This document shows, one piece after another, positions 2,843-11,000 of a stretch of 64,000 bases of DNA. The position numbers and the translations under genes were made by a program. The DNA is from Brachybacterium phenoliresistens (GTDB taxonomy: Bacteria > Actinomycetota > Actinomycetes > Actinomycetales > Dermabacteraceae): the NCBI RefSeq assembly GCF_000576425.1, contig NZ_KK069988.1, positions 229,976-293,975 on the forward strand, read 5' to 3'. A model generated the notes under the pieces. It made no database searches. It was not told where the DNA came from and saw only the letters and a list, made by a program, of their open reading frames with translations. How positions within the stretch are numbered: the stretch's first letter is position 1; every line of letters starts with the position of its first letter.

Positions 2843-4114
2843 TCAGAAGAAGTCGAGCACGCTGGGTCGCGGGCCGGCCAGCAGGGTATCGAGGAACGCC
2901 TCCGCGGCGGGGTCCGCGTCCGCGGCCAGCCCCAGGCGGCGGGCATCGGCCAGGCTGCGCCCGCCCGCCAGCAGGAGCGAGGCGGCGTGGATGTCCAGCC
3001 GGGCGCCCGGCGCGCCGGCGCCCGGATCCTCGTCGCGGCGCACGTCCGGCGGGGTCGGATCCTCGTGGGAGCCCGGGGCGTCCTCGGCCCGATCGGCGAG
3101 GCGATGCACGTGCACCGTCCCCTCCGACGCGCCGACCAGGAAATCCCCGGCCGCCGCGGCGACGGGCCCCGGACCTGTCGCATCGGTGACCCGGAGCCGG
3201 ATGCTGCCGTGCAGCCCGTGGGGTGCGGGGCGGGCCTCCAGCGCGGCCGCGGTGTCGATCACCCGCATCATCACCAGGGGGATCACCTCCGGATCGGGGC
3301 GCACCCGCCCGCCGGGGATCACGTCGAGCAGCGGGTCGTCCTGCCGGGTGCGCACCAGAGCGGCATCGGTGACCGTGGACCACGAGGCCAGCGAGCGCAG
3401 CAGCGCGGCCACGTGCTCGCGGCGCCGCCCCAGCAGGTCGAAGACCTCCAGCCCGGTGCCCGCGGGACCGTCGGGGGTGCGGGCGAAGGAGAGGTAGCCC
3501 TGCGCCGTCCCCTCCGCGTCGCGCACCAGCACGGCCGTCCAGGGCGCGGCGGGCATCTCCTCCCCGAACAGCGGGCCCTCGCGCAGCAGCAGTCCGTTCC
3601 CGGCGTCGACGACCTCGCGGTACAGGGCGCGCACCTCGGGCATCGCGGCGGCGGTCACGGGGGACAGGTGCAGCCCCGCGGGCGCGGGGATGCCGCGCAG
3701 GTCCGCGAGCGGCACGACCAGGCGGTCGACCTGCGAGACCTTCTGGTAGCCGAGGGCGCGGTAGATGCCCGGATTGGAGGGGTAGAGCATCGAGAAGGCG
3801 TGCCCGAGCTGCGTGCTGCGGGCGATCGCTGCCGTCATCAGGCGCGCGAACATGCCGCCGCCGCGGTGGGCCGGATGCACCGACACCCCGCCGATGCCGC
3901 CGCAGGGGGCGATGCCCCCGCCGACGGCGATGCGGTCGTGGCGCACCGTGAGGGCGGCGGCGAGGCCCTCCCCGCCCGGGGCGTCGATGCCCAGCGGCGA
4001 CTGCCCGGGACGGAAGGGCGCCGGGCCGGTGGCGCTCACGCTCCCGCCGAAGGCGAGGGAGCACAGCTGCTGGAAGGGGACGAGGTCGTCGGGGCCGAGA
4101 TCGCGCACGCGCAT
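2843..4114 (-). CDS. Eis-like GNAT-family N-acetyltransferase
   Basis: A 423-residue protein with the layout of the Eis family: an N-terminal GNAT domain with the acetyl-CoA loop VSVHPAHRGGGMFARLM (residues about 77-93), a second degenerate GNAT-like domain in the middle, and a C-terminal SCP2-like domain ending in FF, as the family commonly ends in aromatic residues. Eis proteins acetylate amines of aminoglycosides and other substrates; the natural substrate here cannot be told from sequence. The start ATG at 4114 is the first in frame. The region from about residue 325 to 380 is a low-complexity Asp/Pro/Gly-rich insertion. It lies 36 bases upstream of tdk on the same strand. Confidence 0.8.
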   Translation of the reverse strand: MRVRDLGPDDLVPFQQLCSLAFGGSVSATGPAPFRPGQSPLGIDAPGGEGLAAALTVRHDRIAVGGGIAPCGGIGGVSVHPAHRGGGMFARLMTAAIARSTQLGHAFSMLYPSNPGIYRALGYQKVSQVDRLVVPLADLRGIPAPAGLHLSPVTAAAMPEVRALYREVVDAGNGLLLREGPLFGEEMPAAPWTAVLVRDAEGTAQGYLSFARTPDGPAGTGLEVFDLLGRRREHVAALLRSLASWSTVTDAALVRTRQDDPLLDVIPGGRVRPDPEVIPLVMMRVIDTAAALEARPAPHGLHGSIRLRVTDATGPGPVAAAAGDFLVGASEGTVHVHRLADRAEDAPGSHEDPTPPDVRRDEDPGAGAPGARLDIHAASLLLAGGRSLADARRLGLAADADPAAEAFLDTLLAGPRPSVLDFF

Positions 4115-4223
4115 GATCGGAGTCTAGTGGGGGCGCGGTCCGCGTCCCGGCTCGGCACGGGCATCGGGTGGGAGATACTGTCGGGGCCGCCAACCGGTGC
4201 ATCGGCCGTGCCACGAGGAGGAC

Positions 4224-5165
4224 ATGGTGCCCAGGAACGGATCAGCGCAGGACCGCGGGCCCGCCCGGCCCCGCCCGCCCATCACGCGGCGCAGCCAGGC
4301 GCACGTCACGGGACGGGAGGCCCTGTCCCGGCGTCTCAGCGCCGGCGACCCGCTGAGCGCGCAGAGCCCCGCACGGCGCATCCCGGTGGGCGTGAGCACC
4401 TCCTCGGTGTTCCCCGCGAGCGTCGAGGAGTGCTTCCGGCTGGCCGCCGAGATCGGCTACGACGGCGTCGAGGTGATGGTCTCGACCTCGAAGGTCACCC
4501 GGTCCGTGCAGGAGCTCGCCGCGCTCTCGCGCGCCTACCGCCAGCCGATCCTCTCCCTGCACGCCCCGACGCTGTTCCTGCTCCAGCACGTGTGGGGGCT
4601 GGACCCGTGGGTGAAGATCGAGAGGACCGCGCAGATGGCGGTCGACCTCGACGTGCCCACCATCGTGGCCCACCCGCCGTTCCGCTGGCAGGGCTCCTAT
4701 GCGCGCGGCTTCGTGGAGGGCGTCGCCCGCCTGCAGGAGAAGTACGGCGTGGAGATCGCGGTGGAGAACATGTACCCGTGGCGCCTGGGGGTGCGCGAGG
4801 CCATGATCTACCTGCCCGACCACGACCCCACCGACGAGGACTACCAGCACGTCACCGTGGACCTCTCCCATGCGGCGACCGCGGGGGACGACGCGCTGGC
4901 CATGATCGACCGCCTGGGCGACCGCCTCGCCCACCTGCACCTGGCCGACGGCACGGGGCGCACCACCAAGGACGAGCACCTCCCGCCAGGGGAGGGCAAC
5001 CAGCCCTGCGCCGAGGTGCTGCGGCGGCTGTCCAACCGCGGCTGGCGCGGCTCGGTGCTGCTGGAGGTGAGCACCAGCGGCGGCGGGCCCGAGCATCGCG
5101 AGCGCGTCCTGCGCCAGTCCCTGGCCTTCGCCCGCCACCACCTGGGCCACGGGCTGGACTCGTAG
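4224..5165 (+). CDS. Sugar phosphate isomerase/epimerase-like TIM-barrel protein
   Basis: A 313-residue protein. After about 55 basic, Pro-rich residues comes an AP-endonuclease-2 type TIM barrel: VGVSTSSVFPASVEECFRLA, GYDGVEVMVS, LSLHAPTLF, VAHPPFRWQ, EIAVENMYPW, VTVDLSHAAT, LAHLHLADG and LLEVSTSG. The His, Glu and Asp residues on these strands are those that bind the divalent metal in this superfamily. The substrate is unknown. ATG at 4224 is preferred over an upstream in-frame codon at 4197 because GAGGAGG lies four to five bases before it. The gene is monocistronic as far as can be seen and precedes the ole operon by about 130 bases. Confidence 0.8.
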   Translation: MVPRNGSAQDRGPARPRPPITRRSQAHVTGREALSRRLSAGDPLSAQSPARRIPVGVSTSSVFPASVEECFRLAAEIGYDGVEVMVSTSKVTRSVQELAALSRAYRQPILSLHAPTLFLLQHVWGLDPWVKIERTAQMAVDLDVPTIVAHPPFRWQGSYARGFVEGVARLQEKYGVEIAVENMYPWRLGVREAMIYLPDHDPTDEDYQHVTVDLSHAATAGDDALAMIDRLGDRLAHLHLADGTGRTTKDEHLPPGEGNQPCAEVLRRLSNRGWRGSVLLEVSTSGGGPEHRERVLRQSLAFARHHLGHGLDS

Positions 5166-5232
5166 CCGGCGCCGCGCCGTCCGGCGTGGCATCGGACACG
5201 CGGAGCGCACTCGCAGGCGCCGGGTGGAAGAA

Positions 5233-5272
5233 TGCGTCCGGTGCGCTCCTGTGATCGGGGCGCCCGGACGCA
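5233..5272 (+). promoter_or_regulatory. Hairpin immediately upstream of oleA
   Basis: An inverted repeat pairs 5233-5246 with 5260-5272 (TGCGTCCGG then GCGC on the left; GCGC and CCGGACGCA on the right, with one bulged base) around a 13-nt loop. It ends just before the GAGG motifs that precede oleA. It could terminate transcription from the gene at 4224 or act in the oleA leader; the sequence does not decide between them. Confidence 0.5.
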
Positions 5273-5296
5273 CGAGGACTGAGGTTGAAACGGCAC

Positions 5297-6322
5297 ATGG
5301 GGAACACGTCATTCGTCCACCGCAACGTGGCACTGCTCTCGGTGGAGGCGAGCGTCGCCCAGGTGCCCGTCACCTCGGACGAGATCGACGACATGCTCGC
5401 GCCGGCGCGGCGCCGCCTGCGGCTTCCCAAGGGCGTCCTGCAGCGCGTCGCCGGGGTGTACGAGCGACGCTGGTGGCGTGACCGGGAGAACGGCTGGAAG
5501 CAGGGCATCGTGCTCGCCGCCGAGCGTGCCATGGCCAAGGCCGGCATCACCCGCGACCAGGTGGGGCTGCTCATCAACGCCTCCGTGTGCCGCCAGCACC
5601 TCGAGCCCGCCGTCTCCGCGACCGTGCACCATGCGCTCGGCATGCCGCGCAGCTGCATGAACTTCGACATCACCAACGCCTGCCTGGGATTCGTGAACTC
5701 GATGACGATGGCCGCCGGCATGATCGACTCCGGCCAGATCGAGTACGCGCTGATCGTCGGCGCGGAGGACGTCGAGGAGGTCCAGCGCGGCACCATCGAC
5801 CGCCTGAACTCCAAGCACGCCACCCGCGCCGACTTCAACAACCAGTTCGCGGCGCTGACGCTGGGCTCGGGCGCGGCCGCGGCGGTCCTCGGACGGGCCG
5901 ACGCCCACCCCGAGGGCCACCGCATCAACCTCACCGAGGGGCGCGCCGGCACCGAGCATCACGAGCTGTGCATCGGGGACATGGACGACATGCGCACCGA
6001 CTCGACCGGCCTGCTGGAGAACGGCGTCGAGCTGATCGTGGACACCTGGAAGGACGCGAGCTCCCGGGGACTCGACTTCAAGAGCATCGAGCACGTCATC
6101 CCGCACCAGGTCTCCATGGTCTACACCCGCAACTTCTCGAAGATCACCGGCGTGGGCATGGAGCGGATCCCCGTGACCTTCCCCGACTGGGGCAACGTCG
6201 CCGCCGAGGCCGTGCCGATGACCCTCGCCCATCACCAGGAGAACATCGCCCGGGGCGAGCGCGTGCTCATGCTCGGCGTCGGCTCCGGTCTGAACACCGC
6301 ATTCATGGAGGTCACCTGGTGA
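5297..6322 (+). CDS. oleA: OleA, acyl-CoA head-to-head condensing thiolase-fold enzyme
   Basis: A 341-residue KAS III-like enzyme. OleA joins two fatty acyl-CoAs by non-decarboxylative Claisen condensation to a 2-alkyl-3-ketoacid, the first step of long-chain olefin synthesis. Counting from ATG 5297, the catalytic Cys is Cys129 (DITNACLGF), the His is His270 (VIPHQVSM) and the Asn is Asn300 (DWGNVAAEAV). Glu103 in the CRQHLEP motif matches the family base that distinguishes OleA from FabH. An in-frame TTG at 5285 would add four residues; ATG 5297 begins with the MGN..F...NVALL pattern expected for OleA. It overlaps oleBC by 4 nt and the order oleA-oleBC-oleD makes the assignment firm. Confidence 0.93.
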   Translation: MGNTSFVHRNVALLSVEASVAQVPVTSDEIDDMLAPARRRLRLPKGVLQRVAGVYERRWWRDRENGWKQGIVLAAERAMAKAGITRDQVGLLINASVCRQHLEPAVSATVHHALGMPRSCMNFDITNACLGFVNSMTMAAGMIDSGQIEYALIVGAEDVEEVQRGTIDRLNSKHATRADFNNQFAALTLGSGAAAAVLGRADAHPEGHRINLTEGRAGTEHHELCIGDMDDMRTDSTGLLENGVELIVDTWKDASSRGLDFKSIEHVIPHQVSMVYTRNFSKITGVGMERIPVTFPDWGNVAAEAVPMTLAHHQENIARGERVLMLGVGSGLNTAFMEVTW

Positions 6323-8997
6323 GCACCCGCACCGCAGGACGTCGCCGCGCCGAGCCGGCGCCGGGCCCCGGCATCCCCGTCCTGCCGGGCGTGGACCCGG
6401 TCCACTCCCGCACCCTCGAGGTCCGCGACCACACCGGAGAGCTGCGCCGCTGGCACCTGCTGGACTCCGCGCCGTTCCTCGCCGAGCGCGGCATCACCCC
6501 GCGCGGCACCCTGCTGGCCGTCCACGGCAACCCCACCTACTCCTTCCTGTTCCGCTCCCTGATCCGGGAGGACATCCCCTGGCGCGTGATCGCCGTGGAC
6601 CAGCTGGAGATGGGCTGGTCCGAGCGCACCGGCGTCACCCGGCACCTGCAGGACCGCATCACCGACCTGTCCCTGCTGACGGACGCCCTGTCCCTCCGGG
6701 GCCCCGTGGTGACCGTCGGCCACGACTGGGGCGGCATCGTCTCGGTCGGCTGGGCGCTGGACAACCGCCACGACCTGGCCGGGATGATCCTCACCAACAC
6801 CGGCATCCACCAGGAGCTCGGGGAGTCGCTGCCGCGGGCGCTGCAGCTCGCCACGACCCCGGCGGTGCTGCCGGCGACCACCTCGATCACCGACGCCTTC
6901 ATCCGCACCACCATCGCGATCTCGAATCCGCCGCTGCCGGCCGATGTCGCCCGCGCCTACCTCGCCCCGTACCGCGGCCGCGCCCGCCGCCGCGGCATCG
7001 AGGCCTTCGTCGCGGACATCCCCGCGCACGCCGACCACCCCAGCAGGCCCACCCTCGAGCGCCTGGCCGAGGGCATCTGCGAGGTGGAGGTCCCGACGCT
7101 CATGGCGTGGGGACCCAAGGACGTCACCTTCTCGGACCGCTACCTGCGCGACCTCGTCGCCCGGGTCCCGCATGCGGACGTGCACCGCTTCGAGGGCGCC
7201 AGCCACCTCGTGTGGGAGGACGCCGATGTGGCGGGCCTCGTGGCCCGCTGGCTCGAGCGCACCTTCGGCGCATCGTCCCGGCCCGCGCGCGCCGTGTCGA
7301 CCTTCGCGCAGCAGGCCCCGGAGGGGCACGTCGGCGCGCCGATCGCGCGCCTGGCCGCCGATCCCGCCCACCGCCATGCGGACGCCGTCGTCGAGATGGG
7401 CGAGGACGGCAGGGAGCCCCGCCGGATCAGCTGGCAGCTGCTGCATTCCCGGGTCGAGGACATCGCCGCCGGCATGCTCGCCCACGGCATCGCCCCGGGG
7501 GACCGGGTGTGCGTGCTCATCACCCCCGGCGCGGACCTCACCGCGGTGCTGTACGCCTGCCTGCGCATCGGCGCCGTCGCCGTGATCGCGGACGCCGGCC
7601 TGGGCGTGGACGGCCTCACCCGCGCGGTGGTCGGATCCCACCCGGACTGGATCATCGGCATCGACAAGGCCCTGGCCGGGGCGCGCGCCCTGGGCTGGCC
7701 GGGACGGCGCATCTCCGTGGCCCGGAAGCCGACCCTGGACCGGGCGGCGCTGGGCATCGACACCTCCGTCTCCGAGCTGGCCGACGCCGGCCGGCAGATG
7801 CAGGAGCTCGGCGCCCCGCTGGACGCCCCCTGGCCCGATCCCGAGGCCGATGCGGCGGTGCTGTTCACCTCCGGCTCGACCGGTCCCGCCAAGGGCGCGG
7901 TCTACACGCACCGGCAGATGAGCGCGATGTTCACGGCCGTCGGGGACACCCTGCAGCTGGACCCGCAGCGCGGCCTGGTCGCCGGGTTCGCGCCCTTCGC
8001 CCTGCTGGGCCCCGCCCTCGGCGCCCCGTCCGTCGTCCCCGACATGGACGTCACCCGGCCGGGCGAGCTCACGGCGCAGGCGCTCGCCCACGCGGTCGAC
8101 GCGCTCGGCGCCCCCGCCGTGTTCACCGCCCCCGCCGCCCTGCGCAACATCCTGGACACCTCCGGCGTGCTGGACGGCGCCGAACGGGCCGCGCTCGCGC
8201 GCGTGCCCAGCTTCTTCAGCGCCGGCGCCCCGATCCCCGCGCCGCTCCTGCAGGAGCTGCGCGTCCTCATGCCCGCCGCGCGCGCCCTGACCCCCTACGG
8301 CATGACCGAGTGCCTGGCCATCACGGCGATCGACCTCGAGGGCATCGAGGCCGCCGGGCCCGGCGCCGGGGTGTGCGTGGGCACGCCCGTGCCGCGGGTC
8401 GAGATCGCGATCGCCGCGATGGACGCGCTGGGGGAGACCACCGGGGAGATCACCACCGAGGCCGGGATCACCGGAGAGATCCTCGTCCGCGCCCCCCACG
8501 TGCGCGACCGCTACCTGATGCTCTGGGGCACCACCGACACGGCCAGCCGCTTCGAGGGCTGGCACGCCACCGGGGACGTCGGCCAGCTGGACGCGGCGGG
8601 CCGCCTGTGGGTGGAGGGCCGCGCCGCGCACGTCCTGGCGACCGCCGAAGGGCTGGTCACGCCCGTGCGCATCGAGGAGGCGGCCGAGTCGGTCCCCACT
8701 GTGCGCCGCGCCGGGGCCGCCGCCGTCGGCCCCGCCGGGACGCAGCAGGTCGTCGTGATCCTCGAGACGGAGGCGGACCACCGGCCCGGCAGGGCCACCC
8801 GGCCCCGCCCCGCGGACCCGGCGCTGCAGGAGGCGGTGCGCCGCGCCGTCCAGCAGCGCGCCGGCGTCCCCGTGACCGCCGTGTTCACCACCCGGTGCCT
8901 GCCCACCGACATCCGCCACAACTCCAAGATCGACCGGGCGAGACTGTCCGCATGGGCCGATGCGACCCTGCGCGGAGAGCCGGGGCGTCCCCTGTGA
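6319..8997 (+). CDS. oleBC: OleBC fusion: beta-lactone decarboxylase + beta-lactone synthetase
   Basis: An 892-residue fusion. Residues about 25-310 are an alpha/beta-hydrolase of the haloalkane-dehalogenase type: HGNPTYSFLFR, the nucleophile Asp136 in VGHDWGG and His296 in GASHLVW. This is OleB, which decarboxylates a beta-lactone to a cis-olefin. Residues about 340-892 are an ANL-type ligase: the phosphate loop LFTSGSTGPAKG (about 515-526), YGMTEC (about 659) and GWHATGDVG near the hinge. This is OleC, which closes the beta-hydroxy acid to the beta-lactone using ATP. Fused OleBC is known from actinobacteria such as Micrococcus. The GTG start overlaps the oleA stop (GTGA), and the stop overlaps the oleD start in the same way. 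Confidence 0.93.
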   Translation: MSTRTAGRRRAEPAPGPGIPVLPGVDPVHSRTLEVRDHTGELRRWHLLDSAPFLAERGITPRGTLLAVHGNPTYSFLFRSLIREDIPWRVIAVDQLEMGWSERTGVTRHLQDRITDLSLLTDALSLRGPVVTVGHDWGGIVSVGWALDNRHDLAGMILTNTGIHQELGESLPRALQLATTPAVLPATTSITDAFIRTTIAISNPPLPADVARAYLAPYRGRARRRGIEAFVADIPAHADHPSRPTLERLAEGICEVEVPTLMAWGPKDVTFSDRYLRDLVARVPHADVHRFEGASHLVWEDADVAGLVARWLERTFGASSRPARAVSTFAQQAPEGHVGAPIARLAADPAHRHADAVVEMGEDGREPRRISWQLLHSRVEDIAAGMLAHGIAPGDRVCVLITPGADLTAVLYACLRIGAVAVIADAGLGVDGLTRAVVGSHPDWIIGIDKALAGARALGWPGRRISVARKPTLDRAALGIDTSVSELADAGRQMQELGAPLDAPWPDPEADAAVLFTSGSTGPAKGAVYTHRQMSAMFTAVGDTLQLDPQRGLVAGFAPFALLGPALGAPSVVPDMDVTRPGELTAQALAHAVDALGAPAVFTAPAALRNILDTSGVLDGAERAALARVPSFFSAGAPIPAPLLQELRVLMPAARALTPYGMTECLAITAIDLEGIEAAGPGAGVCVGTPVPRVEIAIAAMDALGETTGEITTEAGITGEILVRAPHVRDRYLMLWGTTDTASRFEGWHATGDVGQLDAAGRLWVEGRAAHVLATAEGLVTPVRIEEAAESVPTVRRAGAAAVGPAGTQQVVVILETEADHRPGRATRPRPADPALQEAVRRAVQQRAGVPVTAVFTTRCLPTDIRHNSKIDRARLSAWADATLRGEPGRPL

Positions 8998-9992
8998 GCG
9001 CGCAGAAGGTCCTGGTCACCGGCGCCTCCGGGATGCTCGGGCGGCATGTGGCGACGACCCTGCGCGACCGCGGGGACAGCGTGCGCGTGCTCCAGCGCCG
9101 CAGCGCCGGAATCGACGGCGTGGAGGAGACCCTGGGGTCCCTCACCGCCGCGGAGGACGTGCGCCGCGCGGTGGCGGGGATGGACGCCGTCGTCCACGTC
9201 GCCGCGAAGGTGTCCATCTCCGGCCCCGAGTCCGAGTTCCGCGAGGTCAACGTCGGCGGCACCCAGGCCGTGCTGGACGCCATGCGCGGGGAGGGCGTCG
9301 CGCGGCTGGTGAACATCTCCTCCCCGTCGGTCGCCCATCTGGGCACGTCCATCGTCGGCCTGGACGCGACCCCGGCGGATCCGCGTCGCGCCCGCGGCCC
9401 CTACGCCCGCACCAAGGCCGCCGCCGAGCAGCTGGCCATGGCCGCCGACGCCGCCGGGCAGCTGATGGTCACCTCCGTGCGCCCCCACATCGTGTGGGGA
9501 CCGGGGGACACCCAGCTGGTGGGGCGCATCGTCGACCGCGCCTCCCGCGGCCGGCTGCCCCTGCTGGACGAGGGCATGGCGCTGATCGACACCACGTACA
9601 TCACCAACGCCTCCGATGCGATCGTGGCGGCGCTGGACCGCATCGAGGACGTCCACGGCGAGAGCTTCGTGGTCACCAACGGCGAGCCCCGCACCGTGCG
9701 CGACGTGCTGGGCGGCTTCTGCGACGCCGCGGGCGTGGCCCGCCCGCACCGGCAGGTGCCCGGCGCCGTGGGACGCTTCGCCGGCCGCGTCGTCGAGCGG
9801 ATCTGGGAGCACCGCCCCGGCCACGACGAGCCGCCGATGACCGAGTTCCTCGCCGAGCAGCTCTCCACCGCCCACTGGTTCGACCAGCGCCGCACCCGCG
9901 AGCGCCTCGGATGGAGCCCGCGGGTGAGCCTCGACGAGGGGTTCGCCCGCCTCGCCGACTGGTTCGCGCAGAACCCCGTCCCCGCCCGCTGA
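8994..9992 (+). CDS. oleD: OleD, 2-alkyl-3-ketoacid reductase (extended SDR)
   Basis: A 332-residue NAD(P)-dependent extended short-chain dehydrogenase. The nucleotide-binding motif VTGASGMLG sits at residues about 8-16, the catalytic YxxxK (YARTK) at about 137-141, with an upstream ISSPSV serine. The family member OleD reduces the OleA product to the 2-alkyl-3-hydroxy acid used by OleC. GTG at 8994 overlaps the oleBC stop by 4 nt, so the three proteins are translationally coupled; in studied organisms OleB, OleC and OleD form large assemblies. Pathway role is inferred from the operon, since the fold alone fits many substrates. Confidence 0.9.
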   Translation: MSAQKVLVTGASGMLGRHVATTLRDRGDSVRVLQRRSAGIDGVEETLGSLTAAEDVRRAVAGMDAVVHVAAKVSISGPESEFREVNVGGTQAVLDAMRGEGVARLVNISSPSVAHLGTSIVGLDATPADPRRARGPYARTKAAAEQLAMAADAAGQLMVTSVRPHIVWGPGDTQLVGRIVDRASRGRLPLLDEGMALIDTTYITNASDAIVAALDRIEDVHGESFVVTNGEPRTVRDVLGGFCDAAGVARPHRQVPGAVGRFAGRVVERIWEHRPGHDEPPMTEFLAEQLSTAHWFDQRRTRERLGWSPRVSLDEGFARLADWFAQNPVPAR

Positions 9993-10032
9993 CCCGTCCC
10001 CTCCTCGCCCTCGCACCCCTGGGAGTCCCGCG

Positions 10033-10713
10033 ATGACCACCGACCGGTCCCACGACCCCGAGCCCACCGACGAGGAGCTGCTCGCCGAGATCGACGCGGA
10101 GCTCGCCGCGGAGGCCGCCGTCCGGCGGCGCGCCCCCGAGCGCGTCACTGGCGCCGTGCTGCTGCTGGGCGGCGCCGTCTCCTGGGTGGCGGCCCTGGTG
10201 CTGATGATCGACAAGCTGTTCCTGCTGGAGAACCCCGGGGCGCAGCTGGGCTGCGACATCAACCCCTTCATCTCCTGCGGGGACGTCATGTCGACCTGGC
10301 AGGCGGCGACGTTCGGGATCCCCAACATGGCCATCGGCCTGGCCGGATACGCGATCATGGCGTGCATCGGCTCCCTGCTGCTGAGCGGGGCGCAGCTGCC
10401 GCGGTGGTTCTCCTGGGCGACCCTGGGCGGGATGACCTTCGCCTTCGGCTTCATCCAGTTCCTGGCGATCTCCGCGATCTTCGTGATCAAGGCCCTGTGC
10501 CCCTGGTGCATGCTCGTGTGGCTGATGACCGCGCCGATGTTCTTCGCCGTCCTCGCCCGCACGATCGAGTCCGGCACCTGGCGGGCGCCGGCGCCCCTCG
10601 CGGCGGTGCTGCGGCACTGGGTGGTGCTGTCGATCGCCTGGTACGCCCTGGTGGTCCTCGCGATCCTCGCCGGGTTCTGGCGGCAGTGGCTGTACATGGT
10701 GGGCCTGGGCTGA
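10033..10713 (+). CDS. Vitamin K epoxide reductase (VKOR) family membrane protein
   Basis: A 226-residue integral membrane protein with an acidic N-terminal tail and about five hydrophobic segments. It carries the VKOR loop cysteines (CDINPFISC, residues about 74-82) and the redox CPWC motif (about 156-159). Bacterial VKORs reoxidise DsbA-like thiol oxidases using menaquinone, so it should act in disulfide formation outside the membrane. No DsbA partner is adjacent in this window. It lies 40 bases downstream of oleD on the same strand but a functional link is not implied. Its stop codon is followed by an unusual tandem repeat. Confidence 0.88.
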   Translation: MTTDRSHDPEPTDEELLAEIDAELAAEAAVRRRAPERVTGAVLLLGGAVSWVAALVLMIDKLFLLENPGAQLGCDINPFISCGDVMSTWQAATFGIPNMAIGLAGYAIMACIGSLLLSGAQLPRWFSWATLGGMTFAFGFIQFLAISAIFVIKALCPWCMLVWLMTAPMFFAVLARTIESGTWRAPAPLAAVLRHWVVLSIAWYALVVLAILAGFWRQWLYMVGLG

Positions 10714-10730
10714 ACCCCCGTGAGCCGGGG

Positions 10731-10829
10731 CTGACCGGGGTGGGGCCGGGCTGACCGGGGTGGGCCCGGCTGACCGGGGTGGGCCGGGGCTGACCGGGGT
10801 GGGGCCGGGCTGACCGGGGTGGGCCGCGG
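10731..10829. repeat. Five tandem copies of a ~20-bp unit after the VKOR gene
   Basis: Units at 10731-10750, 10751-10769, 10770-10789, 10790-10809 and 10810-10829 each begin CTGACCGGGGTGGG and differ only in the length of the following C/G run. The last 20 bases around the VKOR stop (10698-10717) match the unit at about 16 of 20 positions when read in the phase GGTGGGCC..GGCTGA. The remaining 10830-11000 holds no gene or clear signal that I can identify. Confidence 0.85.
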
Positions 10830-11000
10830 CCCAGGGGCAGCGGCCTCCCGACGGCGAGTGCCGGCTGACGAGCCGGGAAAGCCCACCTCCCGGCTCGGGA
10901 ACCGGCGATCGCCGGGGCCGCTTCTCCTCCCCAGGGCGCGCCTGTCCACAGCCCTGCGGCATCGGAGGCGGGACCGTCGCCGGGTGCCTAGCGTCGGGGC

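Follow-up and report, generated by a model that had tools for sequence, protein, structure and literature searches.

An apparently intact oleA-oleBC-oleD cluster with a fused oleBC gene in Brachybacterium phenoliresistens

Organization of the ole locus

The window, that is, the whole stretch of DNA that was analysed, comprises 64,000 nucleotides of Brachybacterium phenoliresistens (contig NZ_KK069988.1, positions 229,976 to 293,975). Translation gave three adjacent, co-directional open frames, corresponding to oleA, a fused oleBC and oleD. The features of the locus are listed below by window position, with the basis for each in parentheses.

4206-5165, upstream of oleA: xylose-isomerase-like TIM-barrel gene (Pfam)
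5281-5284, + strand: GAGG, likely ribosome-binding site (by eye; putative function)
5297-6322, + strand: oleA, 341 aa (translation)
6319-6322, + strand: GTGA overlap of oleA and oleBC (sequence; relatives compared)
6319-8997, + strand: fused oleBC, 892 aa (translation)
8994-8997, + strand: GTGA overlap of oleBC and oleD (sequence; relatives compared)
8994-9992, + strand: oleD, 332 aa (translation)
10033-10713, 40 bp downstream of oleD: VKOR-family gene (Pfam)

For comparison, a pattern-based contig scan with OleA, limited in its reach to close relatives, yielded 25 loci at 72-87% identity, titled Brachybacterium (21), Dermabacter (2), Helcobacillus (1) and Actinomycetales MAG (1). With four further loci of the family and 20 from other families, the sample amounted to 49 loci, some of them probably near-duplicates; these and the protein of the window make up the 50 rows of the alignments.

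The original prediction of an oleA-oleBC-oleD order with a 4-nt GTGA overlap at each junction was exact in its coordinates, and both overlaps are present: the upstream TGA stop codon overlaps a GTG that is in frame with the downstream gene. At the end of oleA, the letters GTGA are accounted for by the TGG codon of the C-terminal tryptophan (Trp341, which is invariant) followed by TGA, and the evidence at the oleA/oleBC junction therefore lies in the frame of the GTG alone. There, GTGA was in frame in all 29 loci of the family and in 14 of the 20 loci of other families; the remaining six comprise four with GTAG and two in which GTGA is out of frame. Between oleBC and oleD, GTGA was in frame in 26 of the 29 family loci, the exceptions being L056 (ATGA, in frame), L027 (out of frame) and L023 (which ends early), and either GTGA or ATGA was in frame in 17 of the 20 others. 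The overlapping GTG would serve as the start codon of oleBC. Residues 1 to approximately 17 of OleBC are poorly conserved, and many tblastn matches begin at residues 17-20.

The ATG at position 5297 is supported as the start of oleA by the GAGG at 5281-5284, from which it is separated by 12 nt. Among 17 upstream stretches read by eye, the same tetranucleotide stands at this spacing before an ATG in several Brachybacterium relatives and does not in others. A consensus scan of positions 4100-10900 found no sigma-70-like promoter, a result that says little in a high-G+C actinobacterium. A search with OleA found one ole locus in this genome; two further matches, at 25% and 29% identity, are what would be expected for other ketosynthases.

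Identification of the Ole proteins

The hallmarks of OleA include a cysteine nucleophile, a histidine and an asparagine. All three are present (C129, H270 and N300), as is the Glu-Pro pair (E103-P104), and the four residues named in the original prediction lie exactly where it had placed them. The NCBIfam model NF006720/PRK09258, named 3-oxoacyl-ACP synthase III, scored 421.6 bits, above its cut-off of 285. PDB entry 3row (E value 9.6e-65) and its sister entries, likewise listed as 3-oxoacyl-[ACP] synthase III, aligned with residues 7-341, to the end of the protein; we take all of them to be OleA of Xanthomonas campestris. Cys129 and Glu103 align with the same chain positions in 3row, and presumably correspond to Cys143 and Glu117 in the literature numbering of the X. 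campestris enzyme. In that numbering, Glu117-Pro is named as essential and as a mark of OleA (PMC7064751, in part). The OleA search pattern of PMC7158056 matches this protein and 47 of the 49 relatives, the exceptions being L022 and L072. The protein thus appears to be a thiolase-superfamily enzyme that would catalyse head-to-head (Claisen) condensation of two acyl-CoAs.

The OleBC protein consists of an alpha/beta-hydrolase OleB half (about residues 20-315) and an AMP-binding OleC half (about residues 346-885). A family search placed the OleB half among hydrolases of the haloalkane dehalogenase type. OleB, the beta-lactone decarboxylase, is characterized by an HGNP motif, an aspartate nucleophile in GHDWGG and a histidine. 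Each of these was found, with Asp136 in GHDWGG and His296 in GASHLVW at the numbers previously given for them. Residues E103, C129, H270 and N300 of OleA, and H69, N71, D136, W137, D268 and H296 of OleBC, do not vary in any of the 50 rows, so that their occurrence is not due to chance. Asp268, given its invariance in those rows, is a candidate for the third member of the OleB triad.

In the OleC half, the ATP-binding motifs that had been claimed were located as SGSTGPAKG (from residue 518), TPYGMTE (from residue 658), Asp753 and Lys870. These residues are the same in all rows apart from Ser520, which is Ala in L073, and two defective rows: L023, which is truncated and has gaps from Tyr660 on, and L027, which is frame-broken and differs at Lys870. 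The closest similarity was to OleC-type models. The three best NCBIfam models were PRK09274 (336.9, against a cut-off of 478), whose name is fatty acid CoA ligase family protein and which we assume to be linked to OleC, and two models for olefin beta-lactone synthetase (265.4 and 232.2, with cut-offs of 900 and 850, respectively); the next ligase scored 129.8. Both synthetase models carry Xanthomonas and Shewanella names, and scores below the cut-offs, while they remain shortfalls, fit a distant lineage.

OleD has a glycine-rich NAD(P) motif (G10, G13, G16), S109 and a YxxxK motif (Y137, K141), the last two residues being the same in 48 of 49 rows (exception, L027). Two OleD models ranked first, NF042422 at 292.9 and the other at 217.9, each against a cut-off of 580, and the next model scored 128.4; a lineage far from Xanthomonas and Shewanella would be expected to fall short in this way too. 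The protein is probably a dehydrogenase of the 2-alkyl-3-oxoalkanoate reductase type. Because the scores lie below the curated cut-offs, the naming of both the OleC half and OleD rests on rank, on the fusion and on gene order.

Distribution of the fused gene

A strong OleBC match was found in all 38 genomes of the genus Brachybacterium; in 37 of them a single match covers both halves, and an assembly artefact as the source of the fusion is rejected on this count. The whole protein lies in one match in 35 of the 38, and no stops occur inside the strong matches. In genome G026, OleBC lies on two contigs, with the break at residue 621, and in G027 it has a frame break near residue 837; in G029, a piece of the OleC half only was found, the match starting from residue 380, where a contig ends. 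A chance arrangement is likewise rejected, given conservation of the cluster across the genus.

The search was extended to 297 genomes of the order, evenly drawn from a larger group. Matches listed to an E value of approximately 1e-18 were counted by hand, and a single OleBC match was scored if it began no later than residue 128 and ended no earlier than residue 883. At least 108 of the 297 genomes have such a match, including all 23 of the family and at least 85 of the 274 outside it, the latter figure being a lower bound because further genomes have OleBC in two listed pieces. Among the matches listed, 11 of the 19 other families are represented; two of the 85 genomes (G075 and G171) have a stop inside the match, and one family, f5, is represented by G075 alone. 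Most of the weak matches listed fall within the AMP-binding half. It is apparent that the fused, overlapping ole arrangement is common in the order.

In genus f15 g42, whose genomes are large, a fused OleBC approximately 50% identical to that of the window stands beside a very different OleA, of 29-31% identity in all six of its genomes searched (G164, whose locus is L072, G099, G138, G151, G204 and G226). The OleA of L072 keeps the glutamate and the cysteine and does not have the NACL motif. These sequences look like the outcome of an exchange of OleA, or of its strong divergence, in this genus.

Flanking genes

The TIM-barrel gene lies upstream of ole in 25 of the 25 titled relatives, and the VKOR gene lies downstream in 22; L023 and L026 end early, and L025 is without it. 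Of the same loci, 22 have comEA and 21 have comEC. In two Brachybacterium loci, L025 and L049, no VKOR gene was found between oleD and comEA, and comEA directly follows oleD. Neither the TIM-barrel gene nor the VKOR gene was detected in any of the 20 loci of other families (tblastn, E value 1e-4; approximately 7 kb on each side, except for L061, which ends approximately 2 kb after oleD), a search that divergent copies could escape. These flanks are the gene order of the family Dermabacteraceae. It is very unlikely that the neighbouring VKOR-family membrane protein and the TIM-barrel gene upstream were recruited to work together with the ole operon in this family; were it true, such a partnership could tie alkene content to the redox state of membrane quinones or disulfides.

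Comparison with known systems and fate of the pathway

The cluster has the same four activities as oleABCD of X. campestris, in which oleB and oleC are separate genes; against the Xanthomonas-named models and the OleD models, its OleC half and OleD fall far short of the cut-offs. Both the oleA-oleBC-oleD order and the OleB-OleC fusion are, to judge by published description, shared with Micrococcus luteus and other Micrococcales (PMC7158056 and PMC7064751, in part), although the M. luteus cluster belongs to a different genus from that of the window. The operon is given as oleA, oleBC, oleD in PMC7158056, and excerpts of PMC7064751 describe the oleBC fusion as having been seen earlier in certain Actinobacteria, typically Micrococcales. 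The locus is an intact-looking, ordinary actinobacterial ole cluster, without departure from the known system, with which many actinobacteria make a long alkene from two fatty acids coupled head to head.

Sequence, family ranking, gene order and conservation together support the original prediction of a complete OleABCD pathway, and the three genes very probably constitute a working, translationally coupled operon of the usual actinobacterial type, with expression, coupling and activity predicted from sequence. OleA, OleC and OleD are common to beta-lactone pathways (PMC7064751, in part), and the cluster could accordingly end at the beta-lactone, as in lipstatin-like oleACD clusters, with the OleB half inactive or otherwise employed. 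The beta-lactone clusters in the available text of PMC7064751 are without oleB, whereas the OleB half here keeps His69, Asn71, Asp136, Trp137, Asp268 and His296, as do all of the other rows; a beta-lactone end product is rejected on these intact residues, and we consider that reading extremely improbable. Still harder to credit, to the point of being nearly negligible, is a silent or decaying remnant. A possible sign of decay exists in one relative, L027, near the oleBC/oleD junction, and none is present in the window, where the frames are open; moreover, the genus has strong OleBC matches without internal stops, and the active sites are conserved. In L027 itself (Brachybacterium sp. Z12), the last part of oleBC and the first part of oleD, at about 9545-10219, are out of frame relative to its relatives, which may reflect either a sequencing error or decay, the two being indistinguishable here.

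In a working operon, OleA would condense two acyl-CoAs, giving a beta-keto acid for OleD to reduce to a beta-hydroxy acid; the beta-lactone would then be closed by the OleC half, and removal of CO2 by the OleB half would leave a long internal alkene. This order of reactions follows PMC6463001 and PMC7158056, the former also describing an OleBCD complex (both in part). The strain is likely to produce alkenes. In Brachybacterium, anteiso-C15:0 is the dominant fatty acid, followed by anteiso-C17:0 or iso-C16:0 (PMC3035206 and PMC6090031, in part). The arithmetic of condensation gives C29 (C15+C15), C31 (C15+C17) and C33 (C17+C17), and the product would be anteiso-rich monoalkenes of about C27-C31.

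According to excerpts of PMC7158056, many Micrococcales make olefins, mostly anteiso-branched and of C27-C29; olefins were found in all of the ole-containing genera whose strains were analysed, and they are expected in further genera with ole genes. Fig. 3 of that paper marks additional genera that have such genes. A search of the open-licence literature found no joint mention of Brachybacterium and long-chain olefins, which is no proof of absence; for Brachybacterium and oleA, the sole joint mention among the matches listed concerns olive pulp.

Significance

The ole locus changes no concept. What the data add is that a fused ole operon, to all appearances intact, runs through Brachybacterium and its family, which is useful for reading hydrocarbons in the lipids of these organisms and offers OleA variants.
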